A program made the position numbers and the translations under genes. 47,861 bases of DNA from Gemmatimonadota bacterium. Its GTDB lineage: Bacteria; Gemmatimonadota; Gemmatimonadetes; Gemmatimonadales; Gemmatimonadaceae. The stretch spans positions 1 through 47,861 of the forward strand of contig CANHJV010000008.1 of the NCBI GenBank assembly GCA_947461225.1, in the 5' to 3' direction. The notes below the pieces were generated by a model. It was given only the letters and a program-made list of their open reading frames with translations, made no database searches and was not told where the DNA came from. Below are positions 3,366 through 47,762 of this stretch, piece after piece; within the stretch, counting starts at the first letter, position 1; each line of letters starts with the position of its first letter.

Positions 3366-3444
3366 GGCGCCACAGGGCGGTGGGTGCTGGTGGCTTTGGG
3401 CTAATGGTTTGGGGTAATGGGTAGTGGGTACTGGGTAATGGGTT
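3366..3444. repeat. Heptanucleotide repeat element, family B, copy 1 (single arm)
   Basis: From about 3391 to 3444 the sequence is a run of degenerate 7-mers of the form NNNTGGG, including TTTGGGG, TAATGGG, TAGTGGG and TACTGGG in constant 7-nt phase; 3366-3390 holds more degraded words. It ends inside the aroB stop codon: the TAG (minus strand) is part of the last word. Only the G-rich arm is present. The same words in similar order occur at 27858-28010 and 47648-47762. The rest of this 318-bp gap (3127-3365) holds the sigma-factor promoter and otherwise nothing I can identify. Confidence 0.85.
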
Positions 3445-4548
3445 CTAGAGCGCGGACTTTACCGCGTCATCGCTGACCGCGACCGACCATTTTCCCTCGG
3501 CGGCTTCCATTTCGCCGATGCCGCGGGGGAGAGAATACCGCGCCGCCCCCCCTCTCGCCTTCTTGTCGCCGTGGGTGGCGGCGACGATGTCATCGAGGCT
3601 GATGCCGGTCGGGAGGCGCGACGGCAGGCCGGCCCGTGTCACGGCGTCGGCGATCGCGAGCGACAGCCCCTCGCGCGCCAGACCGATCGACTCGGCGATA
3701 CGGGCTTCCGCGACCATCCCCATCGCGACCGCGTCGCCGTGGAGGAGCTCGAAGTTGAGCACCCGCTCCACCGCGTGGGCGATGGTATGGCCGAAGTTGA
3801 GGATCTGCCGGAGTCCGCCCTCGCGGGTGTCTTCGGCGACGACGTCGGCCTTGATGCGCACACTGCCCGTAATGAGCGTGGTGATCGTGGCGGCGAAGTT
3901 GGGGGCCGAGGCGCCGCGGTCGCGGACAGCGTCGGCGAACTGGAGGACGGCGTCGAAGTAGGGCGCGTCGGCGATGACGCCGTGTTTGATCATTTCGGCC
4001 ATCCCGCTACGCAGCACGTCGTCCGGGAGCGTCACGAGCACCTCGGGGTCGATGACCACGGCCGACGGATTGTGAAACGCGCCGACGAGGTTCTTGCCGA
4101 AGGGGGTATCGACGGCGGTCTTGCCGCCCACCGAGGCGTCGACCATGGCCAGCAGCGTGGTCGGCACCTGCACGACGGGGAGTCCGCGCATGAAGGTGGA
4201 GGCCACGAACCCGGCCAGGTCGCCGATCACGCCACCGCCCACGGCGACCACGGTGGTATCGCGTCCGGCGCCCCATTCCAGCAGGGCGTCGGTGAGCTCG
4301 GCCCACCGGGCGCGTGTCTTCTCCTGCTCCCCCGGAGGGATGGTGAACAGGTGCGTGCGATCGGCCGGGAACTGGGCCGTGATGGCGTCGGCGTGCAACC
4401 GTGCGACGGTGGTATCGCTGATGACCGCCACGCGATGCGACGGGGCCGCGAGCTGCGCAATCTCCCCGATGCGCTGCCGCACCCCGGCCCGGCAGTAGAC
4501 CGGATACGGCAGCGGCAACTGCAGCGGTTCGGGATGCGCGTCGGACAC
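3445..4548 (-). CDS. aroB: 3-dehydroquinate synthase
   Basis: A 367-residue AroB, the second enzyme of the shikimate pathway, converting DAHP to 3-dehydroquinate with NAD and a divalent metal. The NAD/metal core is clear: PGGEQ-like PPGEQEKT, GGGVIGDLAGFVASTFMRG, the PTTLLAMVDASVGGKT segment, and KNLVGAFHNP. Metal-ligand regions GMAEMIKHG, LNFGHTIAHAVE and LLHGDAVAMGM follow in the usual order. Length is typical. The start is GTG at 4548, which shares one base with the TAG of the upstream adenosyltransferase gene (TAGTG), so the two genes are translationally coupled. Its stop codon lies within heptamer element B1. Confidence 0.96.
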   Translation of the reverse strand: MSDAHPEPLQLPLPYPVYCRAGVRQRIGEIAQLAAPSHRVAVISDTTVARLHADAITAQFPADRTHLFTIPPGEQEKTRARWAELTDALLEWGAGRDTTVVAVGGGVIGDLAGFVASTFMRGLPVVQVPTTLLAMVDASVGGKTAVDTPFGKNLVGAFHNPSAVVIDPEVLVTLPDDVLRSGMAEMIKHGVIADAPYFDAVLQFADAVRDRGASAPNFAATITTLITGSVRIKADVVAEDTREGGLRQILNFGHTIAHAVERVLNFELLHGDAVAMGMVAEARIAESIGLAREGLSLAIADAVTRAGLPSRLPTGISLDDIVAATHGDKKARGGAARYSLPRGIGEMEAAEGKWSVAVSDDAVKSAL

Positions 4549-5093
4549 TACCAGGTCACCTCGCCCGCGCCGGCCCGCTTGTTGGCGACGCGGGCGAGCA
4601 TGAACAGGAGATCGGACAGTCGGTTCAGGTAGACCACGACCATGGCGGGTAGGTCGATCTCCGACGAGAGGTGCACCACCCGCCGTTCGGCGCGTCGGCA
4701 GACGGTCCGCGCCACATGCAGGGCGGCGGATTTCGGCGTGCCACCGGGAATGATGAAGCTGGTGAGCGGGTCCAGCTCCGCCTCACAGGCATCGATGGCC
4801 CGCTCGAGTTCCTCGATGCGCTGCTCGTCGATGCGCGCCTTGGAGAGCTGTTCCTTCATCTTCTCATGATCGGGCGTCGCCAACAGCGCGCCGATGGCGA
4901 AGAGATCGCGCTGTACGGGCACGAGCACTTCGTCGATCCGCGGCATCATGTCGATCGAGCGCGCCAGCCCGAGTGATGCATTGAGTTCGTCCACGTCGCC
5001 ATAGGCTTCGACGCGGGGATGGTCCTTGCCAACCTTGCCGCCACCAAAGAGGGCGGTCGCGCCCTCGTCACCTGCTCGGGTGTAGATCTTCAT
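4548..5093 (-). CDS. Cob(I)yrinic acid a,c-diamide adenosyltransferase, PduO type
   Basis: 181 residues. The N-terminus carries the ATP-binding signature TRAGDEGATALFGGGKVGKD (residues 4-23), followed by YGDVDELNASLG; the C-terminal helices contain RTVCRRAERRVV and YLNRLSDLLFMLAR, the residues that form the active site between subunits. PduO-type enzymes transfer the adenosyl group of ATP to cob(I)alamin and act as trimers in the cytoplasm. The ATG at 5093 is chosen because the extra upstream codons in this frame come from heptamer repeat A1. A minus-10-like TATTAT ends 5 bp before the ATG. Coupling to aroB is by TAGTG overlap; the metabolic link between the two is not obvious. Confidence 0.95.
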   Translation of the reverse strand: MKIYTRAGDEGATALFGGGKVGKDHPRVEAYGDVDELNASLGLARSIDMMPRIDEVLVPVQRDLFAIGALLATPDHEKMKEQLSKARIDEQRIEELERAIDACEAELDPLTSFIIPGGTPKSAALHVARTVCRRAERRVVHLSSEIDLPAMVVVYLNRLSDLLFMLARVANKRAGAGEVTW

Positions 5094-5098
5094 CCTGC

Positions 5099-5104
5099 AT
5101 AATA
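5099..5104 (-). promoter_or_regulatory. Minus-10 element of the adenosyltransferase gene
   Basis: TATTAT on the minus strand, 5 bp before the ATG at 5093. The region where a minus-35 box should lie is already heptamer repeat A1. Leaderless transcription is inferred; an AGG adjacent to the ATG could be a very close, weak ribosome site. Confidence 0.5.
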
Positions 5105-5187
5105 CGAGGGAGTAGGGAGTAAGGGGTATGGAGTACGGGGTAGTCCGGTGCATCGACTCCCTGCCCCATACTCCCTACCCCCTACTT
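5105..5187. repeat. Heptanucleotide inverted repeat element, family A, copy 1
   Basis: The left arm (5105-5143) is made of G-rich 7-mers such as TAGGGAG, TAAGGGG, TATGGAG and TACGGGG. A 12-nt centre follows, then the right arm (5156-5187) of complementary C-rich words such as CTCCCTA and CCCCATA. Both arms keep 7-nt phase. It fills the whole gap between two divergent genes and lies between their minus-10 boxes (5099-5104 and 5194-5199), so both minus-35 regions fall in the repeat. Translation of the arms gives artefactual N-terminal extensions of both genes. Confidence 0.9.
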
Positions 5188-5193
5188 CGCCGT

Positions 5194-5199
5194 TATCTT
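5194..5199 (+). promoter_or_regulatory. Minus-10 element of the reductase gene
   Basis: TATCTT ends 6 bp before the ATG at 5206, with no Shine-Dalgarno sequence, so the transcript is predicted to be leaderless. It is the same hexamer as before glcD. Confidence 0.5.
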
Positions 5200-5205
5200 T
5201 GGCGC

Positions 5206-6240
5206 ATGACGACCCATCCTATCCGCGACCTCACCATCATCGGCGGCGGCCCCACGGGCTTGTTCGCTCTATTTTATGCCGGTATGCGCGGCGCGACGGC
5301 CCAGATCGTCGATGCGCTTCCGGAGCTTGGCGGCCAGCTCACGGCGCTCTACCCGGAGAAATACATCTTCGACGTGGCGGGCTACCCTCGGGTGCTGGCG
5401 AAGGATCTGGTCCGGAATCTCACGGAGCAGGCCAAGCAGTTCCATCAGGAGACGGGCATCCCGGCGCACCTGGGGCAGCGCGTGGTCGGCCTCGAGGAAG
5501 AGGACGGGCATTTCGTGCTGGTCACGGAGACGGATCGGTTCCCCACGCGCGCGGTGGTGATCGCCGCCGGCATCGGCGCCTTCAGCCCGCGCAAGCTGCC
5601 GCAGCCGTTCGCGGCGGAATGGTATGGCCGCGGCGTCGATGCCCTGGTCTCCACGCCCGAGGCGTACCGCGATCGCGATGTGCTCATCATCGGCGGCGGA
5701 GACTCGGCGTTCGATTGGTGCGCGCAGCTGCGTGACAAAGCGAAGTCGGTCACGCTGGTGCATCGCAGCGACCGCTTCCGTGCGCATGCCGCCACGGTAT
5801 CGGAAGTGCAGGCCGCCGCCGCGGCCCATGATGGCAACGTGGCGGTGCACACGTTCCACGAAATCGATGCGATCATGGGCGAGGATCGCATCACCGGCGT
5901 GCGCTTGAAGGACGTGAAGACCAAGGAAACGCGCGAGATGGCCTGCGACGCGATCCTACCGATGCTCGGCTACGTGTCAGACCTCGGCACCCTGCTGGAG
6001 TGGGGCCTCGACATCGAGAAGGACGAGATCAAGGTTTCCACGACCATGGACACGGGGCGCGCCGGTGTGTATGCCGCGGGCGACATCACCACGTACCCGG
6101 GTAAGCTGAAGCTGATCGCGGCCGGCTTCTCCGAAGCCGCGATCGCGGTGAACCAGGCGGTGCACTGGATCTATCCCGACAAGAAAGTCGCGCCGGGGCA
6201 CTCGTCGAATCTGGCGGTATTCGGTCAGAAGGACGACTGA
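5206..6240 (+). CDS. Ferredoxin/flavodoxin-NADP+ reductase, thioredoxin-reductase-like type
   Basis: 344 residues with two dinucleotide-binding folds: the FAD motif GGGPTG at residues 13-18, and the NADPH motif GGGDSA at 163-168. The second FAD signature YAAGDITTYPGK is near the C-terminus, followed by SEAAIAVNQAV and an extension ending in SSNLAVF. The redox-active CxxC expected between the two folds of a thioredoxin reductase is absent (C172 stands alone), and the C-terminal extension is as in the TrxR-like ferredoxin-NADP reductases of green sulfur bacteria and Bacillus YumC. It would pass electrons between NADPH and ferredoxin or flavodoxin in the cytoplasm. Start ATG at 5206 is chosen because upstream codons lie in repeat A1. 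Confidence 0.88.
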   Translation: MTTHPIRDLTIIGGGPTGLFALFYAGMRGATAQIVDALPELGGQLTALYPEKYIFDVAGYPRVLAKDLVRNLTEQAKQFHQETGIPAHLGQRVVGLEEEDGHFVLVTETDRFPTRAVVIAAGIGAFSPRKLPQPFAAEWYGRGVDALVSTPEAYRDRDVLIIGGGDSAFDWCAQLRDKAKSVTLVHRSDRFRAHAATVSEVQAAAAAHDGNVAVHTFHEIDAIMGEDRITGVRLKDVKTKETREMACDAILPMLGYVSDLGTLLEWGLDIEKDEIKVSTTMDTGRAGVYAAGDITTYPGKLKLIAAGFSEAAIAVNQAVHWIYPDKKVAPGHSSNLAVFGQKDD

Positions 6241-6258
6241 GTGCTTTCGGACGGACTC

Positions 6259-6380
6259 GTAGGTCGTTGATGGATCGAAATTTGACGCGAAGACCGCGGA
6301 GCACGCGAACTTCGCGGCCTTCGCGTCAAGTAGTCGACCTGTCCGCTCTCACCGCACCTGCGGCGGAGTAGCCGACCTAC
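6259..6380. terminator. Nested inverted repeat between convergent genes (probable bidirectional terminator)
   Basis: An inner stem pairs TTGACGCGAAGACCGCG (6282-6298) with its near-exact complement at 6313-6329, with one mismatch in 17 bp and a 14-nt loop. An outer pair, GTAGGTCG (6259-6266) and CGACCTAC (6373-6380), is perfect over 8 bp and includes the stop codon of the ABC permease. It separates the reductase (plus) from the permease (minus), as a shared terminator would, but without U-tracts. Confidence 0.65.
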
Positions 6381-7294
6381 GCCCGCACGCGCGGATCGGC
6401 TTTCTGATACGCGAGATCGGTCACCAGATTCACCAGTACGAACACCACCGACAGGAACAGCACGGCCCCCTGTACGGCGGGGAGGTCGCGTCGTGAAATG
6501 GCCATCACCACGTAGCGACCAATCCCAGGCCAGCTGAAGATCGTTTCGGTGAGAATGCTGCCCGTGAGATAGGCGCCGAAGTCGAGGCCGATCACGGTGA
6601 TTACCGGGATCAGCGCGTTGCGCAGGGCGTGGCGGATGATCACGCCCGACTCTGTGAGCCCTTTGGCGCGAGCCGTGCGCACGAAGTCGGCGCCCAGGAC
6701 CTCGAGCATCGACGAGCGCGTCACGCGGGCGAGGTAGGCGATGGAGCGCGAGCCGAGCGCCAGCGCTGGGAGAATCAGAAACTCGATGCCCCCGTACCCA
6801 GAGGCGGGCAGCCAGCGCAGGGTGACGGCGAAGAGCAGGATCAACAGCAGGCCGATCCAGTACACGGGGAACGAGATGCCGAGATAGGTCGTGGCCAGCG
6901 CGAGTCGATCGAACCAGCCGTTGGGGCGCACGGCGGCGAGCACGCCAATGGTGATGCCGCAGATCGTCGCCAGGAGCATGGCGGCGGTTGCCAGCAGCAG
7001 CGTGCGCGGAAAGCGCTCGGCGATGTCGGTGATGATCGGTCGATTGGTCACGTACGACCGGCCCAGGTCACCCTGCAGCACGCCGCTGGCGTAGTGGAGA
7101 AACTGCGCTGGGAGCGGGTCGTCGAGCCGGAGTTCGGCGCGGAGCCGCGCAATCGTGGCCGGGTCGGCCCGTTCGCCCACCATCGCCTGCACGGGATCCC
7201 CCGGCGCGACGTAGAGCAGAAGGAACACGACGACCAGCACCCCCGCCAGCGTGGGCAGGGAGAGTAGAAGGCGGCGGGCGAGCAGGGGCAGCAT
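6377..7294 (-). CDS. ABC transporter permease, peptide/nickel (DppB/OppB) family
   Basis: 305 residues. The N-terminus (RRLLLSLPTLAGVLVVVFLLLYVAPGDP, first membrane helix ending in APGDP) and the EAA loop near residues 204-230 (FVRTARAKGLTESGVIIRHAL) are typical of the DppB-type subunit of peptide importers. About six membrane segments are visible. It would form a heterodimeric channel with a DppC-type partner, which is not in the window. The probable substrate-binding lipoprotein is at 8828-10456, on the same strand but separated by an oppositely oriented diguanylate cyclase. A minus-10 box 7 bp before the ATG shows it has its own promoter. The substrate (peptide, nickel or other) cannot be told. 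Confidence 0.92.
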   Translation of the reverse strand: MLPLLARRLLLSLPTLAGVLVVVFLLLYVAPGDPVQAMVGERADPATIARLRAELRLDDPLPAQFLHYASGVLQGDLGRSYVTNRPIITDIAERFPRTLLLATAAMLLATICGITIGVLAAVRPNGWFDRLALATTYLGISFPVYWIGLLLILLFAVTLRWLPASGYGGIEFLILPALALGSRSIAYLARVTRSSMLEVLGADFVRTARAKGLTESGVIIRHALRNALIPVITVIGLDFGAYLTGSILTETIFSWPGIGRYVVMAISRRDLPAVQGAVLFLSVVFVLVNLVTDLAYQKADPRVRA

Positions 7295-7301
7295 GTCAGG
7301 A

Positions 7302-7307
7302 ACATTA
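7302..7307 (-). promoter_or_regulatory. Minus-10 element of the ABC permease gene
   Basis: TAATGT on the minus strand, 7 bp before the ATG at 7294, with no Shine-Dalgarno sequence. The 98-bp divergent gap 7295-7392 contains this box and, for the plus-strand cyclase gene, no promoter I can name with confidence. Confidence 0.45.
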
Positions 7308-7392
7308 ATCCTTGCGGGAGTCCGGCCGATACTCTCAGCTAATTCCCGGCGCCAATGACGGGGACCTGTCGATTCTCTCCTGCGCCTGAGTC

Positions 7393-8544
7393 ATGTTCTT
7401 TCGCCGCTCCTCCCCCGAACGCTCCGTGGCCGTCGCTCCGCTGTCCGTCGCGCCGGTCGCGTCCTCGCCCGCGTCCCCTACGGCGTCCTCGGCCGCGTTG
7501 CTGTCGGAGCCGTTCGACATCGCTCCGCTCCTCGACGCCTTTGGTCAGGTGCTGTCCGCGTACGCGCAGGGGAGCTTCGACCTCCCCGACGTGTCGTCGA
7601 GTGAAACGGGCGAGGAACTGGAGAAGTGGCGTCGACACGCGGTGCTCGGAATCCCGTTGGCCGAGTCCGGCGGGCTTCCGTCGTTGAATGCGTCGCAGCG
7701 CGACTACCGCGGCGCCGCCCGCGCGCTCACCGACCATCGACGCCGAGAGAAGCGTTACGTGGAGTCGGCCCTCTCCGATCTGCGCGATGCGCTCTGGGCC
7801 TGCGTGGAACGCGTCCACATGGTCGCGCAGGCGGACCTGCAGGCCGATGAAGCCACGTCGGTCCAGATCTCGCGCGTGCGGAGCGCGATTCGCGGGATCG
7901 AGACTCGCGATGTGAAAGACGAGGTGCTGAACGCCATCTCGGCGATCACCGACATCTCGCGCAGCCGACGTGACACCCAGCAAGTCGCCTTCGGCATGCT
8001 CGCCGAACGCATCGACCAGCTCGGTTCGCAGCTCGAAGCAGCCAAACGCGAGAGCGAAACCGACACGCTCACCGGACTCGGCAACCGTAAGCGTTTCGAA
8101 CGCGCCGCCCAACGCGCGATTCAGATTCACACGCTCAACCGTTCCCCGGTGTCGCTGGTGGTGATCGATCTCGATCACCTGAAGCAGATCAACGACGGCT
8201 ACGGACACTCCGCCGGTGACGCGACGCTGCACACGCTCGCAGGCAGTTTGGCCAAGGTTTTTCTGCGCGAATCGGACGTGATCTGCCGCATCGGCGGCGA
8301 CGAGTTCGCGGTTGTGCTGGCGAACACCGACGTGAAGGTGGCATCGCGACTGGCCGATCGTGTCGTCTATCACGTCGGTATCACCCGCGCCCCGTTCGCC
8401 GCCGACGCCCCCGAGCTCAGTGCCAGCGTGGGCTACGCGGCGTACAGTGCGGGCGAAGGTGTGGAGCGGTGGCTGGCGAGAGCAGACGGGGCGCTGTACC
8501 GGGCGAAGAAGGAAGGACGAGGACGGGCGGTGGGGGCTGAATAG
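7393..8544 (+). CDS. Diguanylate cyclase (GGDEF domain), soluble
   Basis: 383 residues. The C-terminal GGDEF domain starts near residue 220 (DTLTGLGNRKRFE) and has the intact active-site motif GGDEF at 301-305 and a product-inhibition site RxxD (RESD, 292-295) five residues before it. It should therefore make cyclic di-GMP from two GTP and be feedback-inhibited. The N-terminal 200 residues have no membrane segment or recognised sensor domain. They begin with an Ala/Ser/Pro-rich stretch, followed by helical, charged sequence that could form a coiled-coil dimerisation stalk. The gene is alone on the plus strand between a permease and a binding-protein gene on the minus strand. Confidence 0.93.
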   Translation: MFFRRSSPERSVAVAPLSVAPVASSPASPTASSAALLSEPFDIAPLLDAFGQVLSAYAQGSFDLPDVSSSETGEELEKWRRHAVLGIPLAESGGLPSLNASQRDYRGAARALTDHRRREKRYVESALSDLRDALWACVERVHMVAQADLQADEATSVQISRVRSAIRGIETRDVKDEVLNAISAITDISRSRRDTQQVAFGMLAERIDQLGSQLEAAKRESETDTLTGLGNRKRFERAAQRAIQIHTLNRSPVSLVVIDLDHLKQINDGYGHSAGDATLHTLAGSLAKVFLRESDVICRIGGDEFAVVLANTDVKVASRLADRVVYHVGITRAPFAADAPELSASVGYAAYSAGEGVERWLARADGALYRAKKEGRGRAVGAE

Positions 8545-8554
8545 AAACGGCTAA

Positions 8555-8842
8555 GGGCGCTACGAGTGAACTGCGCAGACGGCGCTGCACTGCGCTCGTT
8601 TTTCCTTCGGGCTTCGTCTTCTTCGATCCTGCGGATCAGCGACGCCAGCATCCTCGCGGTACGGAGGTTGAAGTGGTTCGGCAATCGCGCACGATATCGC
8701 CACCACGCCAACCCCCCGTCACCAAACGAACGCCCCCACGCGCCTTTGAACGCCGTTCAGCGCCGTTCGCCGTGTCGCCTCTACTTCTTAGCGCCCCTCA
8801 CCTTCGCGCCGTTGACTTTTAGCGCCGTCAATTCTTCGCGCC
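8555..8842. repeat. 16-nt-word inverted repeat element, family C, copy 1, with 210-bp interior
   Basis: The right end (8791-8842) is a tandem run of words resembling GCGCCGTTCACTCTTC (units at 8791-8805, 8806-8821, 8822-8837, then partial). A degraded reverse-complement half-unit lies at 8555-8576. Between them is about 210 bp, containing more scattered GCGCCGTTC-like words (8742-8770). The right end reads into the last five codons and stop of the binding-protein gene. This is the convergent gap of 283 bp between the cyclase and the binding protein; I see no credible intact gene in it. Confidence 0.7.
8585..8700 (-). pseudogene. Possible decayed coding remnant inside repeat element C1
   Basis: On the minus strand a stretch reading TARMLASLIRRIEEDEARRK is helical and charged and resembles the last helix of S23-type four-helix-bundle proteins. 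It has no start of its own with a ribosome site, the sequence before it does not look like a protein, and after it the frame runs into repeat words. I regard it as, at most, a fragment; chance is a real alternative. Confidence 0.2.
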
Positions 8843-10456
8843 ACTCATCACCACACGCTCCCATCTCTGTCCATTGAAAATCACCGGTACCTCAAAGCCT
8901 CGGATCCACGGCTGTACCGCGTACACTTCGTTGTAGAAGAACAGCGGGACCATGCCGACTTGTGCGTATCCCACGGAGTCCGCCGCCGCGTACAGCACCG
9001 CGCGCTTCGCCGCATCCGATTCACGTCGGGACAGGTCGACCAACCGGTCGAACGTCGTATCGCTGAAGAAACTCACGTTGCCGCCGGCGCCGCGGTTTGC
9101 GGTGTGCAGCAGCGGATACAGGAAGTTCTCGGCGTCGGGGTAATCGGCGTACCAGTCCTTCACGACCAGATCGGTCTGACCGGCGCGGGCGGCGGCGCGC
9201 ATGGAGCTGGCGTCGCGTTGCACGAGTTTGATGCGGATGCCGACGGTGGCGAGGTAGGCCTGGATCGCTTGCGCGAGGCGTGGCATCGGGGCGGTCTGCG
9301 AGCTCCAGAGTTCGAGGTCGATGCCCGTGGTGTAGCCGGCGTCGGCGAGGAGTTTGCGCGCGGCGAGGGTATCGTAGGCGTACGGCTGGCGCCGCTTGTC
9401 AAAGCCTTCGAGGGTGGGCGGAATTACGCCAGCGGCGATGGTGCCGCGTCCGGCGAGGAGCTGAGCGAGGAGGGTGGGCACGTCGATGGCGTGGGCGATC
9501 GCCTGACGTACGCGCACGTCTTTCAGTGGGCCGCGCGTGACGTTCACGCCCATGTACCACAGGCGCAGCGCCGGCGCGCTGACCAGGGTGGCCTTCTTGG
9601 TGTCGGTCTCTTCCCAGTCGCGCGTCTGGTCTTCGGGGACGTAGAGAATGTCGACCGTGCCCGCCTCGAACTCCGCGACCGCGGTGGAGGGCTCGGGGAT
9701 GATGCGGGCGATCAGCGTGTCGATGGAGGGCGCGCCGCCGAAGTACGTGGCGTTGCGGGCGAACTTGAGATAATCGTCATGCTTCCACTCCACGAGCTTC
9801 CAGGGGCCGGTGCCGATGGGGTGTTCGCTGAAGTCGGCGCCAACGGAGTCGGGGAGAATCGACGCCACGGGCATGGCGAGCAGCTTCGGGAAGATCGCGA
9901 ACGGCTCGTCGAGCGTGATCACGACCGTGGTGTCGTTGGGCGTCTCGATACCCAGCGCGGTGCCCTTGCCGTCGGACTTGCCGTCGGCGAAGGCGCGGGC
10001 GCCGGTGATGGGGTACAGCGGCCACACCGTCCCGCCCTTCGTGGCCGGGTCGAGGACGCGCCGGAACGACTGCGCGACGTGCCGGGCGACCAGCGGCGTG
10101 CCGTCGTGGAAGCGGACGTCGCTGCGCAGATGGAACGTGTAGCGCAGGCCGTCGGGGGAGACGTCCCACGAGCGGGCGATCGATGGCTGCACCTGACCGG
10201 CGGGGGTGAACTTGGTGAGTCCGTCGAACAGATACGCCACGGCCCGTCCGCTGGGCACGTCGGTGGCTTTGGCCGGATCGAGCGAACGCGGATCGTACCA
10301 ATCGCGTGAGTCGATCAGCGCGTGACGGTCAGGGGTCGCCTCGCCGCTGCGGCAGCCGGTCAGCGTGCCGGCCAGCATACTGGCCAGCATGCTGGTGGCC
10401 ATGGTGCACCGCGAGAGCAGCGAGCAGAGCGAACGTGACGGGCGAATCGATGGCAT
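8828..10456 (-). CDS. ABC transporter substrate-binding lipoprotein, peptide (family 5) type
   Basis: 542 residues from the ATG at 10456. The N-terminus is a lipoprotein signal peptide with a basic start, a hydrophobic stretch and lipobox LTGC at about residues 31-34, so the protein is predicted to be acylated and anchored in the envelope. The mature part shows the SBP_bac_5 pattern: DPRSLDPAKATD, YLFDGLTKF, PSIARSWDVSPDGLRYTFHLR, and RFHDGTPLVARHV, with WYMGVNVTRGPLKDVRVRQAIAHAID in the second half. It would capture peptides or similar ligands for a DppBC-type importer, probably using the permease at 6377-7294. A longer reading of the frame upstream of 10456 runs antisense to tamA and is rejected. 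Its last codons form part of repeat C1. Confidence 0.92.
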   Translation of the reverse strand: MPSIRPSRSLCSLLSRCTMATSMLASMLAGTLTGCRSGEATPDRHALIDSRDWYDPRSLDPAKATDVPSGRAVAYLFDGLTKFTPAGQVQPSIARSWDVSPDGLRYTFHLRSDVRFHDGTPLVARHVAQSFRRVLDPATKGGTVWPLYPITGARAFADGKSDGKGTALGIETPNDTTVVITLDEPFAIFPKLLAMPVASILPDSVGADFSEHPIGTGPWKLVEWKHDDYLKFARNATYFGGAPSIDTLIARIIPEPSTAVAEFEAGTVDILYVPEDQTRDWEETDTKKATLVSAPALRLWYMGVNVTRGPLKDVRVRQAIAHAIDVPTLLAQLLAGRGTIAAGVIPPTLEGFDKRRQPYAYDTLAARKLLADAGYTTGIDLELWSSQTAPMPRLAQAIQAYLATVGIRIKLVQRDASSMRAAARAGQTDLVVKDWYADYPDAENFLYPLLHTANRGAGGNVSFFSDTTFDRLVDLSRRESDAAKRAVLYAAADSVGYAQVGMVPLFFYNEVYAVQPWIRGFEVPVIFNGQRWERVVMSGAKN

Positions 10457-10505
10457 GTGCGGTTGACTGAGGGGCGATCTCGCGTGAGCTTCAACGCTAT
10501 AGAAC

Positions 10506-36261: not shown

Positions 36262-36272
36262 TTGGCTCTCAC

Positions 36273-39793: not shown

Positions 39794-39812
39794 CGATGTC
39801 ACGGTGAGCGGC

Positions 39813-40841: not shown

Positions 40842-40848
40842 GTGACGG

Positions 40849-40854
40849 AATATA
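40849..40854 (-). promoter_or_regulatory. ruvB: Minus-10 element of ruvB
   Basis: TATATT on the minus strand, 7 bp before the ATG at 40841. The best leaderless-promoter match in the window. The rest of the 195-bp divergent gap to the DUF3299 gene has no repeat element. Confidence 0.55.
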
Positions 40855-40968
40855 CCGTGGCGGCTCGGCACCAGCGGACGAAGTTGGGGTACTGTTGGGG
40901 ACGGCTGCGGTCGATCAGCTTTGGACAGCCTGCAGCATGCCCGCTTCAGCGTTCCCCCCCGGATTGCG

Positions 40969-40974
40969 TAGATT
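40969..40974 (+). promoter_or_regulatory. Possible minus-10 of the DUF3299-ABC operon
   Basis: TAGATT 62 bp before the ATG at 41037. In contrast to the leaderless genes, an AGGA ribosome-binding sequence is present about 8 bp before the ATG. No convincing minus-35 box. Confidence 0.35.
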
Positions 40975-41036
40975 TCCGGGAGTGACCCGCGACGCCGTCG
41001 CGTGGGCTCCCGTTCGTCCTGCTCCCAGGATCCGCC

Positions 41037-41576
41037 ATGTCCCGCCGTTCGCCTGTGCTCTCGCTGGTCGGTCTTTCCGTCGTGCTCTGTGCCACGACGG
41101 CATTTACCACGCCGACCCGTCCCGTGCGCTCCACGCCGCCCGCCCGCGTGGCGGTTGCCCCGGCCGTGGCCAAAACGCCGGCGGCTCCGAAAGCGCTCGT
41201 CGAAGAGGCGGTCAATATCGACTGGCGCGTGCTGGCCGGGCTCGACTACACCAACGGCAAATCAACGGATACGCTCAAGAAGCTCGAGGGGAAGCTGGTC
41301 CGGATTCCGGGCTTCGTCGTGCCACTCGACGACTTCCAGGAAGAGGGGGCCGAGTTCCTGCTGGTGCCGTACTACGGCGCCTGCGTGCACACGCCGCCGC
41401 CGCCGCCGAATCAGATCGTGATGGTGGAGATGGGTGGCAAGAAGGCGGTCAAGCTCAACTTGTTCGACGCTGTCTGGATGTCGGGGCGCCTCAAGATTGC
41501 CTCGGTCGAAAGCCCGTACGGCACCGTGGGCTACCAGCTGGAAGGACTCAAGGTCGAGCCCTACTCGTCGAAATGA
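41037..41576 (+). CDS. DUF3299-domain protein, exported
   Basis: 179 residues. The N-terminus is a signal peptide ([16 protein letters not shown]); the region after it is Pro/Ala-rich. The core, from about residue 57 ([15 protein letters not shown]) on, ends in the family's diagnostic [17 protein letters not shown] with a Cys-x-His pair that could bind metal or haem, then [20 protein letters not shown]3299 genes often sit next to a MacB-like ABC transporter, as here, and a related Vibrio operon is a zinc-import system (Zrg type). No His-rich binding protein of that kind is present here, so substrate is unknown. ATGA overlap with the ATPase gene follows. Confidence 0.88.
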
Positions 41577-42319
41577 GTGAGGGGGCTGCAGTGGCAGCTC
41601 CCGCCGGCACCGGTCCCGCCGGGACCCCGGCGGTCGAGCTGTCCGCGTTGCGCTTTGCGTACAAGACAGGGCGCGACGTCCTAGCGATCGACTCGCTGAC
41701 CATCGCCCGCGGCGAGACGGTGTTTCTGCATGGGCCGAGTGGCAGTGGCAAGACCACGCTCCTCGGCCTTCTTGCCGGTGTGCTGCAAGCGACCAGCGGC
41801 AGCGTGCGCATTTTGGGGCAGGACTTCTCGACGATGTCGGGCGGAGCCCGCGATGCGTTCCGAGCGCGACATCTGGGCTACGTCTTCCAGATGTTCAATC
41901 TCATTCCGTACCTGCCGGTGCGAGAGAACATCCTGCTGCCGGTGCGACTGGAGCCAGCCCGTCGCGAGCGACTCGGCGGACGCTCGCTCGACGACGCCGT
42001 GCGTGACATCGCGTCGCAACTCGATATCGCCCAGTATCTCGATTCCCCGATTTCGGAACTGAGCGTCGGGCAGCAGCAGCGCGTCGCCGCGGCGCGCGCG
42101 CTGATGGGCAGCCCCGAAGTGGTGATCGCCGACGAGCCCACCAGTGCGCTCGACACCGACCGGCGCGAACGGTTTCTCAAGTTGCTGTTTGCGTCGTGCG
42201 AAAAGGCCAAGGCCACGCTCGTGTTCGTGAGCCACGATCACACGCTGATGCCGCTCTTCTCGCGGACGGTGGAGCTCATGGAGATCAATCGCATGGCGAA
42301 GGTGGGTGCCGACGCATGA
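41573..42319 (+). CDS. ABC transporter ATP-binding protein, MacB/LolD-like
   Basis: 248 residues from the ATG that overlaps the previous stop (ATGA). Walker A GPSGSGKT at 54-61, Q-loop in YVFQMFNLIPY, signature LSVGQQQR at 163-170 (the usual second residue is G, here V), Walker B and catalytic Glu in VVIADEPTSALD (DE at 187-188), and the switch His in FVSHD. It drives the FtsX-like permease that follows. MacB-like ATPases couple to periplasmic mechanotransmission rather than transmembrane substrate passage. Only 10 bp separates it from the permease. Confidence 0.93.
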   Translation: MSEGAAVAAPAGTGPAGTPAVELSALRFAYKTGRDVLAIDSLTIARGETVFLHGPSGSGKTTLLGLLAGVLQATSGSVRILGQDFSTMSGGARDAFRARHLGYVFQMFNLIPYLPVRENILLPVRLEPARRERLGGRSLDDAVRDIASQLDIAQYLDSPISELSVGQQQRVAAARALMGSPEVVIADEPTSALDTDRRERFLKLLFASCEKAKATLVFVSHDHTLMPLFSRTVELMEINRMAKVGADA

Positions 42320-42329
42320 GGACATCACG

Positions 42330-43958
42330 ATGATGATCCTGCGCCTGGCGCTCACGTCGCTGCGCAGCCGGCTGTTGACCACGTCGCTCACGGTGGCGTC
42401 GATCGCGCTGAGTGTCACCCTGCTGGTGGGTATCGAGAACGTGCGCGCCGGCGTGCGCGACAGCTTTGCGGGCACGATTCGCGGTGTCGACCTGATCGTC
42501 GGCGCGCGCGGTGGCACGCTGCAGGTGTTGTTGAGCGCGGTATTTGGTATCGGCTCGCCGTCTGGCTCGGTGAAGTTGTCCACGATGGAGCGGTGGAAGG
42601 CGCATCCGGCCGTGAAGTGGGTGGTCCCGTACTCGCTCGGCGACAGTCATCGCGGGTTTCGCGTGGTCGGCACGACGCCGGAATTCTACGAGCGTTATCG
42701 CTTCCGCAAGGACGGGCGGATCGTGTTCGTGTCGGGACGCGCCGCGGTCGCGGATACCGAAGTGGTGATTGGCAGCGAGGTGGCGGAGAAGCTGGGCTAC
42801 ACGATCGGCACGCCGGTGGTGGTGGTGCACGGGCTCCGCGACATCGGGACGTCGAGCCATGAGACGCACCCGTTTCATGTGGTCGGGATCCTGGGGCGCA
42901 CGTTCACGCCGATCGATCGGTCGGTGTACGTGACGCTTGAGGGGATCGAGGCGATGCATGAGCCGGAAGCGGCTGGCGTTGCTGGGTCGTCGATGGCGTC
43001 GGCGGAGGCAGCAGGAGGGAGGGTATCAGGAGGGAGGGGGCAGGGGGGGACGGCGCAACCTTCCGCGGCGAAGCCGAGTGCGAAAGCGGCGGCGATCATT
43101 GCGGCGAACAAGCAGCGGGCGGCGGCGATGGCACCGCCGCCGGGCACGCCGATGGTGATGCCGGGGGCGGAGCCACCGCCGGGCACGCCGATGGTGATGC
43201 CGGGGGCGGAGCCACCGCCGGGCACGCCGATGGTGATGCCTGGGGCGGAGCCACCGCCGGGCACGCCGATGGTGATGCCGGGCGCTGAGCCGCCGCCGAG
43301 TGCGCTGCCCGAGGTGCAGGCGGCCGCCGCGAGGCAGCAGGTGGCGGAAAAGCGCGTCCCGATCGCGGCGGAGGTCGCAGCAGCGCCGGCGCATGATCAT
43401 GGCGACGATCAGATCACGGCGTTCTTCGTGGGGACCAAGAATCGGTTCGAAGCACTGATGCTGCAGCGCGAGATGAACACCGATCTTGTGGAGCCGCTCA
43501 CGGCCGTCATTCCTGGCGTGGCGCTCGGCGAGTTGTGGCAGAACATCGGCAGCGCCGAGGTTGGGCTGCGGGTGATCGCGATATTCGCCGTCGCCATCGG
43601 ACTCACCGGCATGCTTGTCGCGCTGTACTCATCGCTCGAAGCGCGTCGTCGCGAGATGGCGATTCTGCGTGCGGTGGGCGCGGGTCCGCGCATGATCATT
43701 TCGCTGCTCGTGCTCGAGAGCGGACTGCTTGCGCTGCTGGGGTGCATTATCGGCGTGGCCGCCGTGTACCTCGGCCTGTTCGTGGCGCAGGGGCCGATCG
43801 AACAACGTTTCGGTTTGCACCTCGCGCTGCATCCGCTCCGCTCGATGGAATGGACGTACCTCGCCGTCGTGATGGGCGCGGGCGTCGTGATCGGCTTCGT
43901 GCCGGCATGGAAGGCCTATCGCACGTCGCTCGTGGATGGATTGAGTCCGCGGGCCTGA
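42330..43958 (+). CDS. ABC transporter permease, MacB/FtsX-like, with a 13-residue tandem repeat
   Basis: 542 residues from ATG at 42330, with GAGG 9 bp upstream. One N-terminal membrane helix (residues about 13-30, LTVASIALSVTLLVGIEN), a large periplasmic domain, and three C-terminal helices (ALYSSLEARRREMAILRAVGA before them; final helix ending in GVVIGFVPAWK) are typical of FtsX/MacB-type permeases. Within the periplasmic domain, residues 269-320 are four tandem copies of PPPGTPMVMPGAE, followed by a degraded fifth, with the Met-x-Met in each copy exactly conserved. Just after it is AHDHGDDQ. Normal MacB-type permeases lack this insert; it may bind metal ions or be only a linker. Confidence 0.9.
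   Translation: MMILRLALTSLRSRLLTTSLTVASIALSVTLLVGIENVRAGVRDSFAGTIRGVDLIVGARGGTLQVLLSAVFGIGSPSGSVKLSTMERWKAHPAVKWVVPYSLGDSHRGFRVVGTTPEFYERYRFRKDGRIVFVSGRAAVADTEVVIGSEVAEKLGYTIGTPVVVVHGLRDIGTSSHETHPFHVVGILGRTFTPIDRSVYVTLEGIEAMHEPEAAGVAGSSMASAEAAGGRVSGGRGQGGTAQPSAAKPSAKAAAIIAANKQRAAAMAPPPGTPMVMPGAEPPPGTPMVMPGAEPPPGTPMVMPGAEPPPGTPMVMPGAEPPPSALPEVQAAAARQQVAEKRVPIAAEVAAAPAHDHGDDQITAFFVGTKNRFEALMLQREMNTDLVEPLTAVIPGVALGELWQNIGSAEVGLRVIAIFAVAIGLTGMLVALYSSLEARRREMAILRAVGAGPRMIISLLVLESGLLALLGCIIGVAAVYLGLFVAQGPIEQRFGLHLALHPLRSMEWTYLAVVMGAGVVIGFVPAWKAYRTSLVDGLSPRA
43134..43289 (+). repeat. Four 39-bp in-frame tandem repeats inside the ABC permease gene
   Basis: Units at 43134-43172, 43173-43211, 43212-43250 and 43251-43289, each coding for PPPGTPMVMPGAE, nearly identical at the DNA level, and a partial fifth from 43290. 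Such near-identity indicates recent expansion by slippage or unequal exchange, so copy number may vary between strains. Confidence 0.95.
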
Positions 43959-43995
43959 CGCACGACACTTCATTCACCGAATACCAGAACACCGC

Positions 43996-45621
43996 ATGCG
44001 TACCTCTGCTGCACTTGCTCTGCTGCTGGCAACGGCCGGCTCTGCCGCCGCACAGCCGGGCCGCGGCCCGTCACCGGTCGCCAAGAACATCCAGGCGTTG
44101 CCGGTTGATCCGGCGCCGTCGTACGTCCGGAAGGACGCGCCCACCGATCCCGTCATCCTGAAGCTGTGGGACGAAGGGATGCAGCGGTCGCAGGCTGGCG
44201 CACTGGCGCAAGCCCTCCTCGATTCCGTCGGCCCGCGCCTGACCGGCTCGCCCAACATGAATCGCGCGCAGGACTGGCTGTTGGCCACCTACAAGCAGTT
44301 CGGTGTGTCGGCGCGCAAGGAGCAGTACGGTACGTGGAACTCGTGGAAGCGGGGGGCGGCGTTCGCGCAGCTCACGGCGCCGCGCATGAAGGCGCTCGAG
44401 ATCAACATGCTGTCGTGGAGCGGCAATACGGCGGGCAAGTGGGCCGAGGGCGAGGTGGTCGTCGTGAAGCCGTATCAGTCGCCCGAGGAGTTCACGGCGT
44501 GGCTGCCGAGTGTGAAGGGCAAGATCGTGCTGGCGTCGGCGCCGCGTCTCACGTGCCGTCCGGCATCGCAGATGGCGGAGTTCGCGATGCCGAGCACGCA
44601 GTCGTCGCTGGATTCGCTGCAGCGCGATCTGTCGGCCACGTATCAGGGCGTCACGCAGCGCGTGCCGACCTTCTACAGCGATGTGAAAGCGGCCGGCGCC
44701 GTGGCGGTGTTCGAATCGAACTATTCGCAGTATCCCGGCGTGAACAAGATTTTCGGGTCGCCGCGCAACGCCGCGCTGCCCACGTTCGATGTGGGATGCG
44801 AAGACTACGGCATGCTGTTCCGTCTCGCGCAGAACAAGCAGGGCCCGAAGGTGCGTCTGATGGCGGAATCCGAAGCGCTCGGCGACAAGCCGGTGTTCAA
44901 CGTGATCGCCGAGATCAAGGGCGCCACGAAGCCCGACGAATACGTCGTGTTGTCGGCGCACTTCGACAGCTGGGAAGGACACTCGGGCGCGACCGACAAC
45001 GCCACGGGTTCGATCACCATGATGGAAGCGCTGCGCATTCTGCACGCGGTCTATCCGAAGCCGTCGCGCACGATTCTCGTGGGGCACTGGAGCGGCGAAG
45101 AGCAGGGGCTGAACGGGTCGGGCTCGTTCACCGCCGATCATCCGGAGGTCGTGAAGGGGCTGCAGTTCGCCTTCAATCAGGACAACGGCACGGGCCGCGT
45201 GGTGAGCACGGGTCCTGGGCTGCATCCGGAGAACGGACCGCGCCTGGCGCAGTACATGAGCCAGATGCCGTCACAGCTCACGCAGTACATCCGTCTCTCA
45301 GGCCCGTCGGGCATCGGCGCCGGCTCAGACGACGCATCGTTCCGCTGCTGGGGCGCCCCGGCGGTCGGACTCGGCGCCCTGAACTGGGACTACAGCAACA
45401 GCACGTGGCACACCAATCGCGATTCGTTTGACAAGATCATTGTCGATGATCTGAAGCACAACGCGACGCTCACCGCGATGTTCGTGTACCTGGCCAGCGA
45501 AGACGCCGAGAAGAGCTCGCGCGTGCTGGTCGATCCGATTCCCGGTGGTCGTCCGGGGCAGGTCATCACGGTACCGAGTTGTGGGAAGCCGCAGCGGGAT
45601 GCATCGACGTACCGTCGATAA
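43996..45621 (+). CDS. Secreted M28-family zinc aminopeptidase
   Basis: 541 residues with an N-terminal signal peptide ending near residue 19 (ALLLATAGSAAAQ). The C-terminal domain (from about residue 310) carries the M28 zinc sites: SAHFDSW with first His-x-Asp, GATDNATG with bridging Asp, SGEEQGLNGS with catalytic and metal-binding Glu, a later Asp (NQDNGTG) and TWHTNRDS with the last His. A PA-like domain is likely between (FTAWLPSVKGKIVLAS). It would hydrolyse N-terminal amino acids from peptides outside the cytoplasm. It is monocistronic, with no clear promoter. Confidence 0.93.
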   Translation: MRTSAALALLLATAGSAAAQPGRGPSPVAKNIQALPVDPAPSYVRKDAPTDPVILKLWDEGMQRSQAGALAQALLDSVGPRLTGSPNMNRAQDWLLATYKQFGVSARKEQYGTWNSWKRGAAFAQLTAPRMKALEINMLSWSGNTAGKWAEGEVVVVKPYQSPEEFTAWLPSVKGKIVLASAPRLTCRPASQMAEFAMPSTQSSLDSLQRDLSATYQGVTQRVPTFYSDVKAAGAVAVFESNYSQYPGVNKIFGSPRNAALPTFDVGCEDYGMLFRLAQNKQGPKVRLMAESEALGDKPVFNVIAEIKGATKPDEYVVLSAHFDSWEGHSGATDNATGSITMMEALRILHAVYPKPSRTILVGHWSGEEQGLNGSGSFTADHPEVVKGLQFAFNQDNGTGRVVSTGPGLHPENGPRLAQYMSQMPSQLTQYIRLSGPSGIGAGSDDASFRCWGAPAVGLGALNWDYSNSTWHTNRDSFDKIIVDDLKHNATLTAMFVYLASEDAEKSSRVLVDPIPGGRPGQVITVPSCGKPQRDASTYRR

Positions 45622-45632
45622 CGGCGAAGTAT

Positions 45633-45690
45633 GCAGTACGGGGTAGGGGGTACGGAGAACTCCCTACCCCCTACTCCCTACCCCTTACTT
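45633..45690. repeat. Heptanucleotide inverted repeat element, family A, copy 2 (tight hairpin)
   Basis: The G-rich arm (45633-45657; TACGGGG, TAGGGGG, TACGGAG) is followed by a 2-nt turn and the C-rich arm (45660-45690; CTACCCC, CTACTCC). The central 15 bp of each arm (45643-45657 and 45660-45674) pair with one mismatch. It fills the 63-bp convergent gap between the M28 peptidase and ruvA, and its last word contains the ruvA stop codon. Confidence 0.92.
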
Positions 45691-46281
45691 AGTTGTCAGT
45701 CGCCCCAGCGCCGCCCTCACCACCGCCCCGACATCCCCGCCCGCCCCGCCGTCCATCACGCCCCGCACGGCGCGATCGGCTTCGAGCTGGTTGTAGCCCA
45801 GTGCGATGAGCGCACGAATGGCGTCGTCGGCCACCGGGCTCGCCGTGACACCCGCCGCGGTCGGCGCGGAGCCGACGGTGTCCATCTTGTCGGCTAGATC
45901 GAGGATGATCTGCTCGGCCTTCTTGCGACCCACGCGCGGGACGCGCATCAGCGTCGTGATGTCCTTCTCTCGCAGCGCGCGCACCACGCGTTCCGGCGTG
46001 AGCGACGACAGGATGCCAAGCGCGAGGGCGGGGCCGACGCCCTTGGCCACGAGCAGTCGCTGAAACACCGCACGGTCGTAGCGATCGGAGAATCCGTACA
46101 GGTGCCACGCGTCTTCGCGCACGGCGAGATGCGTGTGCAGCGTGACCGTCGCCCCTTCCTGCGGTAACGACTCGAAGACCGAGAGCGGAATGAGGCATTC
46201 GTAGCCCACACCGCCCGCCGTCAGGATTTCCACGCGATCGAGTTCGCGATGGACGAGCGTGCCGGATACCAGAGCGATCAT
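45685..46281 (-). CDS. ruvA: Holliday junction DNA helicase RuvA
   Basis: 198 residues. Begins MIALVSGTL, with domain I beta-barrel (GVGYECLIPLSVFESLP) and the DNA-binding helix-hairpin-helix segment containing VAKGVGPALALGILSSL and RVPRVGRKKAEQIILDL. The C-terminal domain that binds RuvB is present (IRALIALGYNQLEADRAVRGV). ATG overlaps the ruvC TGA (ATGA). Its TAA lies within heptamer repeat A3, so the last residues may be repeat-encoded. Confidence 0.96.
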   Translation of the reverse strand: MIALVSGTLVHRELDRVEILTAGGVGYECLIPLSVFESLPQEGATVTLHTHLAVREDAWHLYGFSDRYDRAVFQRLLVAKGVGPALALGILSSLTPERVVRALREKDITTLMRVPRVGRKKAEQIILDLADKMDTVGSAPTAAGVTASPVADDAIRALIALGYNQLEADRAVRGVMDGGAGGDVGAVVRAALGRLTTK

Positions 46282-46814
46282 TTCACGAGCTTGGAGAGAG
46301 GGAGGCGCATCGCCGGCAGCTCGGGGAGCGTCGGCCGCGATGACATGAGGCAGGCGCAGAGCGCGGCGGCCACGCCGTCGGCCGCGTCGGCGGGCTGCGG
46401 TGCACTCTTGAGGCGCAGCAGGCGCGCGACCATGAACTGCACCTGCTCCTTCGTGGCGGCGCCGGTGCCGGTGATCGCTTTCTTGATCTCGGCCGGCGGG
46501 TACTCGCAGATCGTGAGCGCGGCCTTCTGCGCCGCGAGCAGAATCACGCCGCGTGCGTGACCGAGCACGATCGTGGTGCGCACGTTCTTCGCGTAGAACA
46601 CGTCCTCGACCGACATCGTGTCGGGACGGTGCCGCGCCAGGACTTCCTCGACGCCTTCGTGAATCTCCAACAGGCGCTGGGGAAGCGGGTCCTTGGCAGT
46701 GGTGCGGATGACGCCGCACTCCACGAGGGTGGCGATGCGGCCGTCGAACGCGACCACACCGTACCCCGTGACGGCGGTGCCCGGATCGATCCCGAGCACC
46801 AGCGACGGGCTCAC
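46278..46814 (-). CDS. ruvC: Crossover junction endodeoxyribonuclease RuvC
   Basis: 178 residues from GTG at 46814, which overlaps the yebC TGA (GTGA). Catalytic acids are D10 in GIDPGT, E70 in SVEDVFYAKN, and D143 and D146 in DAADGVAAALC, the same spacing as in other RuvC proteins; the segment AEIKKAITGTGAATKEQV is also typical. It cuts Holliday junctions and works with RuvAB. Frames with longer N-termini overlap yebC and look like shadows. Confidence 0.96.
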   Translation of the reverse strand: MSPSLVLGIDPGTAVTGYGVVAFDGRIATLVECGVIRTTAKDPLPQRLLEIHEGVEEVLARHRPDTMSVEDVFYAKNVRTTIVLGHARGVILLAAQKAALTICEYPPAEIKKAITGTGAATKEQVQFMVARLLRLKSAPQPADAADGVAAALCACLMSSRPTLPELPAMRLPLSKLVK

Positions 46815-47554
46815 GCCTCGGCCATCGCGTCGTCGTCCATCTCGAAGTTCGCGTCGACCTTCTGCACATCGTCGAGCTCTTCGAGCGCTTCGAGCAACTT
46901 CATGAGCTGATCGGCCGCGGAGCCTTCCACTTTCACGGTGCTCTTGGGCACCCACGCGAGTTCGGCATCGGCCACCTTGTACTTCTTCGACTCGAGTCCT
47001 TCCTTCGTCGCGTGCAGCGCGCCCGGATCGGTCGTGATCGTGAACTCGGTGTCGTCGCGCACCACATCGTCGGCACCGGCCTCGAGTGCGGCTTCGATCA
47101 GCGTGTCTTCGTGCACGCCCTCGGCGGATACGGACATCTGTCCCTTCCGCTCGAAGAGGTACGCCACGGAGTTGCTGGATCCCATGTTGCCGTGGTTGCG
47201 CGACAACTTGTGCCGCACATCGGCCACGGTGCGGGTGGGGTTGTCGGTGACCGCCTGGATCATGATCGCCACGCCGCCGGGACCGTAGGCTTCGTACAGC
47301 ACTTCGACGTAGTCCACGCCTTCCAGTTCGCCGGTGCCCTTCTTGATGGCGCGGTCGATGTTGTCCTTGGGCATCGACACCGCCTTCGCGTTGTCGATGG
47401 CGGTACGCAGGCGAGGATTGCCGCCGGGATCACCCCCGCCCAGCTTGGCGGCCATGGTGATTTCGCGGATCAGCCGCGTGAAGAGCGCGCCGCGCTTGTT
47501 GTCGGTCGCGGCCTTCGCGCGCTTGATCGTTTTCCATTTGCTATGTCCTGCCAT
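46811..47554 (-). CDS. yebC: YebC/PmpR-family transcriptional or translational regulator (TACO1 family)
   Basis: 247 residues. N-terminus MAGHSKWKTIKRAKAATDNK and later GGDPGGNPRLRTAIDNAKAVSMPKDNIDRAIKKGTGELEGVDY are the family's hallmark; the C-terminal acidic tail (ANFEMDDDAMAEA) is typical. These proteins bind DNA or act in translation of Pro-rich sequences; the exact role is disputed. The order yebC-ruvC-ruvA is widely conserved, which supports all three assignments. A ribosome site (CAGGG) and a TTCACA/TTATTT promoter lie upstream. Confidence 0.97.
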   Translation of the reverse strand: MAGHSKWKTIKRAKAATDNKRGALFTRLIREITMAAKLGGGDPGGNPRLRTAIDNAKAVSMPKDNIDRAIKKGTGELEGVDYVEVLYEAYGPGGVAIMIQAVTDNPTRTVADVRHKLSRNHGNMGSSNSVAYLFERKGQMSVSAEGVHEDTLIEAALEAGADDVVRDDTEFTITTDPGALHATKEGLESKKYKVADAELAWVPKSTVKVEGSAADQLMKLLEALEELDDVQKVDANFEMDDDAMAEA

Positions 47555-47604
47555 CGCCCTGCCCCGTGAATGCGGATATGGGTGTCATCCAACCGATGTC
47601 GGGG

Positions 47605-47635
47605 AAAATAATGCCGAGAGGGGCAGCGGTGTGAA
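47605..47635 (-). promoter_or_regulatory. yebC: Promoter of the yebC-ruvC-ruvA operon
   Basis: Minus-35 TTCACA (47630-47635) and minus-10 TATTTT (47605-47610, 19-bp spacing) or TTATTT (18-bp) on the minus strand, giving a leader of about 45 nt. Element B3 lies just upstream. Confidence 0.5.
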
Positions 47636-47647
47636 AACCCCGCTGTG

Positions 47648-47762
47648 CAACCCACCACCCACTACCCAGTACCCATTGCCTCAAACCAACAACCCGCAGC
47701 CCACAGCCGCTGTGGGCTATTGGCTGCGGGTTTGGGGTAATGGATTCTGCGTTCTGGGTTCC
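47648..47762. repeat. Heptanucleotide inverted repeat element, family B, copy 3 (two arms)
   Basis: C-rich left arm (47651-47707; CCCACCA, CCCACTA, CCCAGTA, CCCGCAG) and G-rich right arm (47709-47762; TTTGGGG, TAATGGA, TTCTGGG). The centre is a perfect 8-bp palindrome (CCCACAGC, single base, GCTGTGGG at 47700-47716). One arm has an extra heptamer relative to the other. It fills the gap between the dnaB-like gene and yebC. Confidence 0.9.

Follow-up and report, generated by a model that had tools for sequence, protein, structure and literature searches.

Dispersed heptamer arrays of two word families, often inverted pairs, lean towards stop codons in a Gemmatimonadota genome

The stretch of DNA considered here, called the window, is the whole 47,861-nt contig CANHJV010000008.1 (C8) of a 3.7 Mb, 264-contig draft genome (G000; GCA_947461225.1) from a Gemmatimonadota bacterium of the Gemmatimonadaceae. 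Six of its intergenic regions hold tandem arrays of degenerate heptanucleotides belonging to two families of words, A and B, and these are often arranged as inverted pairs of a G-rich and a C-rich arm. The genes used as landmarks are those that, from the look of their sequences, we take to be TsaD, Lgt, FeoA/B, RuvA, YebC, AroB and M28-peptidase relatives. The six arrays are as follows.

3366-3444, plus strand: family B, one G-rich arm only, built of TNNTGGG words and directly adjoining the AroB-like stop codon (gene at 3445-4548, minus strand).
5105-5195, no strand assigned: family A inverted pair with right end TACTTCGCCGTTA, in a divergent gap, one of 4 divergent among 46 arrays.
27858-28010, no strand assigned: family B inverted pair in which the C-rich arm precedes the G-rich one, 8 bp past the Lgt-like stop codon (gene at 28019-28846, minus strand).
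28847-28886, plus strand: family A, one G-rich arm only, 12 bp past the TsaD-like stop codon and 3 bp from the Lgt-like start codon.
45619-45690, no strand assigned: family A inverted pair with left end TAACGGCGAAGTA, between convergent genes.
47648-47762, no strand assigned: family B inverted pair in which the C-rich arm again comes first, located upstream of the YebC-like gene.

All six are present as the tandem arrays of degenerate 7-mers that the initial annotation had described, with a lag-7 identity of 0.57 to 0.70, and at most 1 of 2000 base shuffles reaches the value of each array. A blind scan of the window recovered five of the six above 0.60 and no other stretch, where a first-order Markov null gives a mean of 0.08 window positions at 0.60; the remaining array, 28850-28886, which like 3366-3444 is single-armed, was detected only at 0.52, alongside five stretches outside the six arrays. 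With up to three mismatches allowed, the words of the two families match the window 12 and 11 times against expectations of 0.02 and 0.17, and one of those 11 matches (24996) falls outside the arrays. That the arrays nearly fill their gaps was also claimed; they do occupy the greater part of the gap at 5105, 28850 and 45633, but 79 of 318 bp at 3366 and 153 of 253 bp at 27858. Because family-A arrays mostly extend to conserved ends, the array placed at 45633 has its true start in the TAA stop codon, at 45619-45621. Its left end, TAACGGCGAAGTA, supplies this stop to the M28-peptidase-like gene, and the RuvA-like stop codon falls within its right arm. The array at 47648-47762 was left unclassified by position, as its other neighbour gene runs off the contig. 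The start of another contig (C70:1-260, locus L090) nearly copies window 47636-47766 with few differences. This may reflect an assembly break at the array, or strain variants that were kept apart; the copy, being a near duplicate of the window contig end, was excluded from every locus count.

Copies occur beyond the window as well, both families being found across the draft genome, so that the initial annotation withstands the refutation test that it had set itself, and the description of dispersed, related arrays in two word families is upheld genome-wide. There are 48 loci, 33 of family A and 15 of family B, and none lies wholly within a called gene. Read on the G-rich strand, the family-A word is NGGRGTA, and family B has GTNNTGG words outside and a core of GCTGTGG, GTTGG and TTTGGGG. 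The words alternate strongly fixed and nearly free letters, the first letter carrying only 0.12-0.18 bits in four genomes; the bits at the fixed letters are inflated by the choice of units by those same letters. The degenerate family-A pattern matches the genome 168 times, against 2 for the reversed control, and a B-type pattern 96 times against 56. Given this weak separation, family-B loci were tallied by inspection. As the reversed B control itself gives 0 to 4 matches per genome and strand pair in places, and 5 in G000, low family-B counts carry little meaning. Copies within a family were said to share several words in the same order, which is true of the family-B core (GCTGTGG..GTTGGTTTGGGGTNNTGGG) and not of family A beyond its ends.

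The window also shows raised 7-nt periodicity (GGAGGGA/GGGGGCA words) at 42999-43054, within a permease-like open reading frame (ORF) at 42306-43958, and intergenic CCTGNNN arrays at C1:56251, 67820 and 69269 resemble this stretch. CCTGNNN-type arrays are possibly a third word family. The same ORF contains a 39-bp coding tandem repeat at 43137-43298, with 4.2 copies and 95% matches (PPPGTPMVMPGAE).

Forty-six of the 48 loci can be classified by their flanking genes, with array edges set by hand and gene calls from a codon-usage ORF picker. Thirty-one lie in co-directional gaps, 11 in convergent and 4 in divergent ones, and 38 of the 46 overlap a stop codon or lie within 20 bp of one. Placement at random over all gap space gives a mean of 4.6 such contacts and a maximum of 10 in 300 simulations. 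The stricter placement of each array within its own gap gives a mean of 28.2 and a maximum of 36 in 2000 runs, a high expectation that reflects how short many gaps are and how little room the arrays leave in them. In the 31 co-directional gaps, the stop side is contacted by 27 arrays (17.2 expected) and the start side by 16 (17.2 expected). The arrays occupy short gaps and lean to the stop codon within them. Family-A arrays often make this contact to the exact letter. The stop codon is TAA in 26 of 38 family-A 3' contacts, compared with 44 of 163 genes in unbiased stretches, a baseline that contains genes touching arrays. It is precisely the TAA that opens TAACNG in 15 of the 38, and in five of the 38 the gene enters the array and ends -TAK* inside the end motif, a -TAK ending found in 1 of the 163 baseline genes. 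Neither the lean to the stop codon nor the conserved family-A ends formed part of the initial annotation.

Most family-A arrays are bounded by conserved, complementary ends, TAACNGCGAAGTA and TACTTCGCNGTTA, which keep the same 7-nt phase; the terminal inverted repeat TAACNGCGAAGTA is present in family A only. Of 24 pairs found, 22 were analysed, the family-B locus L087 and a shorter pairing at L083 being dropped. All 22 have the G-rich arm followed by the C-rich arm, although the script sought that order only and the opposite was simply not seen by eye, whereas family-B paired elements occur in both orders. The elements fold strongly, with a median z (both strands pooled) of -6.2 for the 22 family-A elements and -8.1 for 8 chosen family-B elements. 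Predicted folds in the window are -50.7 kcal/mol (z -4.7) at 5100-5197, -80.4 (z -9.0) at 27858-28010, -36.8 (z -3.3) at 45619-45690 and -58.4 (z -6.2) at 47648-47762. When arms are swapped, only 11 of the 22 family-A elements do better with their own right arm than the mean over the right arms of the other elements. The free letters of paired units are complementary in 24 of 72 cases as against 31% in shuffles (3 of the 72 are affected by an out-of-register reading of the left arm at L077). This lack of compensation gives no sign of selection for exact pairing, and, with free letters uncompensated and arms interchangeable, locus-specific hairpin selection is not supported. The array hairpins are strong but word-generic, the stem being made by the fixed letters while the free letters show no covariation. 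At two family-A elements (L071 and L077) an inner hairpin is kept while the heptamer arms change. Within the window there was no Rfam match above the gathering score and no tRNA was found.

The word structure could also be explained if the arrays docked a protein that binds DNA or RNA and recognises the words one by one at 7-nt intervals, or if they formed G-quadruplexes on the G-rich strand. The alternation of fixed and nearly free letters would suit such a protein. By sequence, the family-B G strand has a G3-N4 spacing, and heptamers of Xanthomonas and Nostoc were shown to form quadruplexes in vitro (Rehm et al. 2015, PMC4692102). However, family-A tracts are often interrupted (GGAG), GAGTNNN words lack G tracts, and one gap can carry either kind of word; no binding protein has been identified, none having been searched for. 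We regard docking or quadruplex formation as improbable.

The distribution of family A was followed with a pattern allowing two mismatches in 100 genomes, the window's own included, of which 30 belong to the genus. It matches 15 genomes, 12 of them within the genus. All 10 genus genomes whose TsaD is at least 86% identical to that of the window match; among the other 20, one of which (G006) gave no TsaD match, two do so, at 1 and 3 places. Within the genus, family A is for the most part a feature of one subclade, and a single-contig genome in the set, G029, has 40 matches. The sequence stretches retrieved for comparison are biased to places with family-A (plus three family-B) matches. Similar words also occur in longer heptamer arrays outside the phylum, in Thiohalocapsa, Chloroflexi, cyanobacteria, Bacteroidetes, a planctomycete and others. 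A collection-wide search listed 80 of 86 stretches, against a chance expectation of about 7 by our own arithmetic; 35 lay outside five array-rich Gemmatimonad metagenome-assembled genomes (33 outside the phylum) and 32 of the 35 were inspected. Thirty-one of these 32 extend by at least one further unit, which about 2.4% of random 7-mers would pass, and 9 have an opposite-strand partner.

Synteny with relatives is good, so that single sites can be followed. Thirteen sites were compared, namely every listed A or B array on the window, the whole of C1 and C2:20001-62962, and at all 13 the orthologous gap of G029 also carries an array. Nine of these are of the same family, one is related (GGGCCRT words for B) and three have GAGTNNN/AAGTNNN words in place of A. 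Left out were a weak array (C2b 9746) that lies inside a called gene and has no two-sided match, and three CCTGNNN-type arrays, of which two have a counterpart array in the corresponding gap of G029 and the third lacks a two-sided match. In the reverse direction, six of eight G029 queries matched two-sided in the window's genome, two of the six (5127639 and 5141073) with only weakly similar words. At one word-switched site, ACTGCGAAGTGA closes the RuvA-like gene of G029; next to the new words it has the look of a former family-A end, but an ancestral ending belonging to the gene itself could account for it too. A further comparison comes from G028, which has no family-A pattern match and carries AGTTNNC/TCAGTT arrays at the M28/RuvA gap and others nearby, and from G021, in which no arrays were called at the thresholds used in the 48 kb scanned. 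Orthologous arrays differ in unit number and in their free letters, while flanks are mostly 82-97% identical within the subclade.

Other features were noticed at these gaps. Near G029:C1 5132190, the ortholog of C1:32641, about 1.4 kb lies beyond the family-A array that is absent there in the window's genome, and it may be an inserted element. The FeoA/Lgt gap of G028 (L183:7790-8258, 469 bp) holds inverted words, ACTGCGGT and CACTGCAGTGG, without clear 7-nt phase, together with GC-rich hairpins. Upstream of the feoA-like gene of the window, at 27774-27790, lies the dyad TTGAGAATGGTTCTCAA, which to us resembles a Fur-type site; its core, TGAGAATGNTTCTCA, is kept in 12 of 12 relatives compared, array-less ones included.

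Dispersed copies, the family-A terminal inverted repeat TAACNGCGAAGTA, a patchy distribution and the presence of different families at the same gap recall mobile DNA. The arrays might thus be miniature elements, like miniature inverted-repeat transposable elements (MITEs) or repetitive extragenic palindromic (REP) sequences, propagated by a transposase whose targets are stop codons or hairpins already in place. A search for the Y1_Tnp family (PF01797), the type of the REP-associated tyrosine transposases (RAYTs), speaks against this. Such a gene is present in 8 of the 30 genomes of the genus, a distribution that does not follow that of the arrays: it is absent from G029 (one contig) and from G011 and G015 (drafts), all of them array-rich, and the window's genome has one. 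A RAYT/REP origin was rejected on this result. Near-identical copies within a genome are likewise not seen. In the cleaned family-A set, shared two-unit strings amount to 0.006-0.009 within genomes and 0.007-0.009 between them, with orthologous pairs kept in the between-genome figures and residual family-B arms of G000 removed. Being equally alike within and between genomes, the arrays are unlike a recent burst from a master copy; recent amplification and genome-wide homogenisation were rejected for want of a within-genome excess. No target duplication was noticed by eye in the compared gaps, with no systematic test made. A mobile origin seems to us quite improbable.

Neutral slippage is a stronger rival. 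A property of the replicating polymerase may expand heptamers, and arrays may survive only where they are harmless, just behind genes. Unit number and free letters do vary between orthologous loci, arrays can be lost (as in G015), exact pairing is not selected and similar words form arrays in distant phyla, as the 31 of 32 extending loci show. A bacterial excess of heptamers and a proposed explanation by polymerase footprint are published (PMC4692102). The own-gap control, with its expectation of 28.2, somewhat strengthens this reading against the one we prefer. What it accommodates less readily is the lean within gaps to the stop and not the start codon, yet avoidance of promoters and ribosome-binding regions could also produce that lean. 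Nor does it readily yield the conserved family-A ends, the G-arm-then-C-arm order of the 22 paired family-A elements (the only order searched) or the retention of sites when words switch. Neutral slippage is a serious possibility, if one that we would not put first.

The interpretation that we tentatively prefer, with confidence somewhat short of even, is that two lineage-specific families of heptamer words, often in inverted pairs, form word-generic stem-loops behind stop codons and are retained at their sites as replaceable structures of the 3' untranslated region (3'-UTR). Units would be gained and lost in 7-nt steps, by slippage or unequal exchange, which agrees with a hypothesis published for heptamer repeats (PMC4692102). 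The feature retained would be a stem-loop at the mRNA 3' end, which any word family could supply, and the stem-loops would bound or protect transcripts in the manner of 3'-UTR structures of the REP or bacterial interspersed mosaic element (BIME) type. The stop codons in family-A ends would allow arrays to abut the final codons of a gene directly or to lie within them. From position, fold strength and site retention, a 3'-UTR stem-loop function is the most likely one.

Several observations weigh against this interpretation. Four of the 46 arrays lie in divergent gaps. Twenty-eight have at most 40 bp to spare in their own gap, and short gaps account for much of the arrays' closeness to genes. 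Eighteen are also, or only, within 20 bp of a start codon, although 18.7 are expected under own-gap placement, so there is no excess. The free letters of the arms are uncompensated, and the fold of one family-A element (L082) is no stronger than that of its shuffles (z -0.9). The FeoA/Lgt gap has no array in G015 and only short remnants in G014, G024 and G027. At gaps 2 and 5 the automatic scans missed the G029 arrays, which were picked out by eye, and two of the three word-switched arrays are such by-eye recognitions. Lastly, terminator-like sites are not in excess, with 13 against 11.1 in shuffled sequence and 10 against 8.8 (window 1-20000 and 27800-47799), in a scan permitting loops of 3-8 only. 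Two weak sites fall on family-B arrays (27953 and 47758) and none on family-A arrays. The arrays were rejected as intrinsic terminators, for they have the GC-rich hairpin but, in the two window stretches scanned, no excess of the U tract after the stem. Any transcript ending at the arrays would therefore mostly not take the textbook intrinsic route, and protection or processing is equally possible.

A wider proposal is that the site and the 7-nt grammar are inherited while the word is exchangeable. The arrays would then belong to a widespread class of gene-end elements in which loci could move between word families, since selection sees just a generic stem-loop following the stop codon; remnants of old ends would sometimes be left, and a similar few words recur in unrelated phyla. 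We consider this rather unlikely. The genus nevertheless offers a useful comparison set, with no called arrays in 48 kb of G021, the same sites with mostly the same words in G029 and other words at some gaps in G028. Such a set could separate a mutational engine from any selected property, and the arrays contribute a positional rule, towards the stop codon, and ends that supply stops.

REP and BIME sequences are dispersed extragenic palindromic stem-loops without fixed 7-nt units. The arrays share with them the dispersal of stem-loops outside genes, but here no Y1 transposase tracks the elements. A literature search limited to open-access papers found no report of heptamer arrays in Gemmatimonas. 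The initial annotation likened the arrays to known heptamer repeats, and aptly. The paper of Rehm et al. (2015, PMC4692102) describes degenerate GGGANTN heptamers that form convergent inverted pairs, 70 in one Xanthomonas genome and 75 in another, an excess of heptamer repeats across bacteria and, citing earlier work, the polymerase footprint as its proposed cause. It calls open why 7-nt repeats are so common among the longer simple repeats of bacteria and whether they have a role. The arrays described here are of the same kind, with tandem, partly degenerate 7-nt units that are dispersed, intergenic, near gene ends and commonly in inverted pairs. Arm pairing is thus not the extra property that it was thought to be, since Xanthomonas already has inverted pairs (PMC4692102) and the pairing here is generic. 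The words differ: NGGRGTA, and GTNNTGG with its GCTGTGG core, are not the GGGNATC or GGGGA(C/T)T of the Xanthomonas and Nostoc repeats, and stop-supplying family-A ends, word switching at a conserved site and a Gemmatimonad host set the arrays further apart from those repeats. The short tandemly repeated repetitive (STRR) heptamers of cyanobacteria (Calothrix), which that paper cites and which are likened here by description only, similarly comprise several families with other words in another host. The TAACTGA repeats of Beggiatoaceae, cyanobacteria and Bacteroidetes (MacGregor, PMC4679880) are likewise patchy across distant phyla and carry stops in three frames, but they are direct and lie mostly just upstream of start codons, where the present arrays are stop-biased and often inverted. 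AACTGA/TCAGTT words in 7-nt steps do occur in G028 (8 pairs 7 nt apart in 49 kb, compared with none in G021 and the window). To these systems the present arrays add exact contact with the stop codon, family-A ends that supply it, interchangeable arms and the switching of words at conserved sites.

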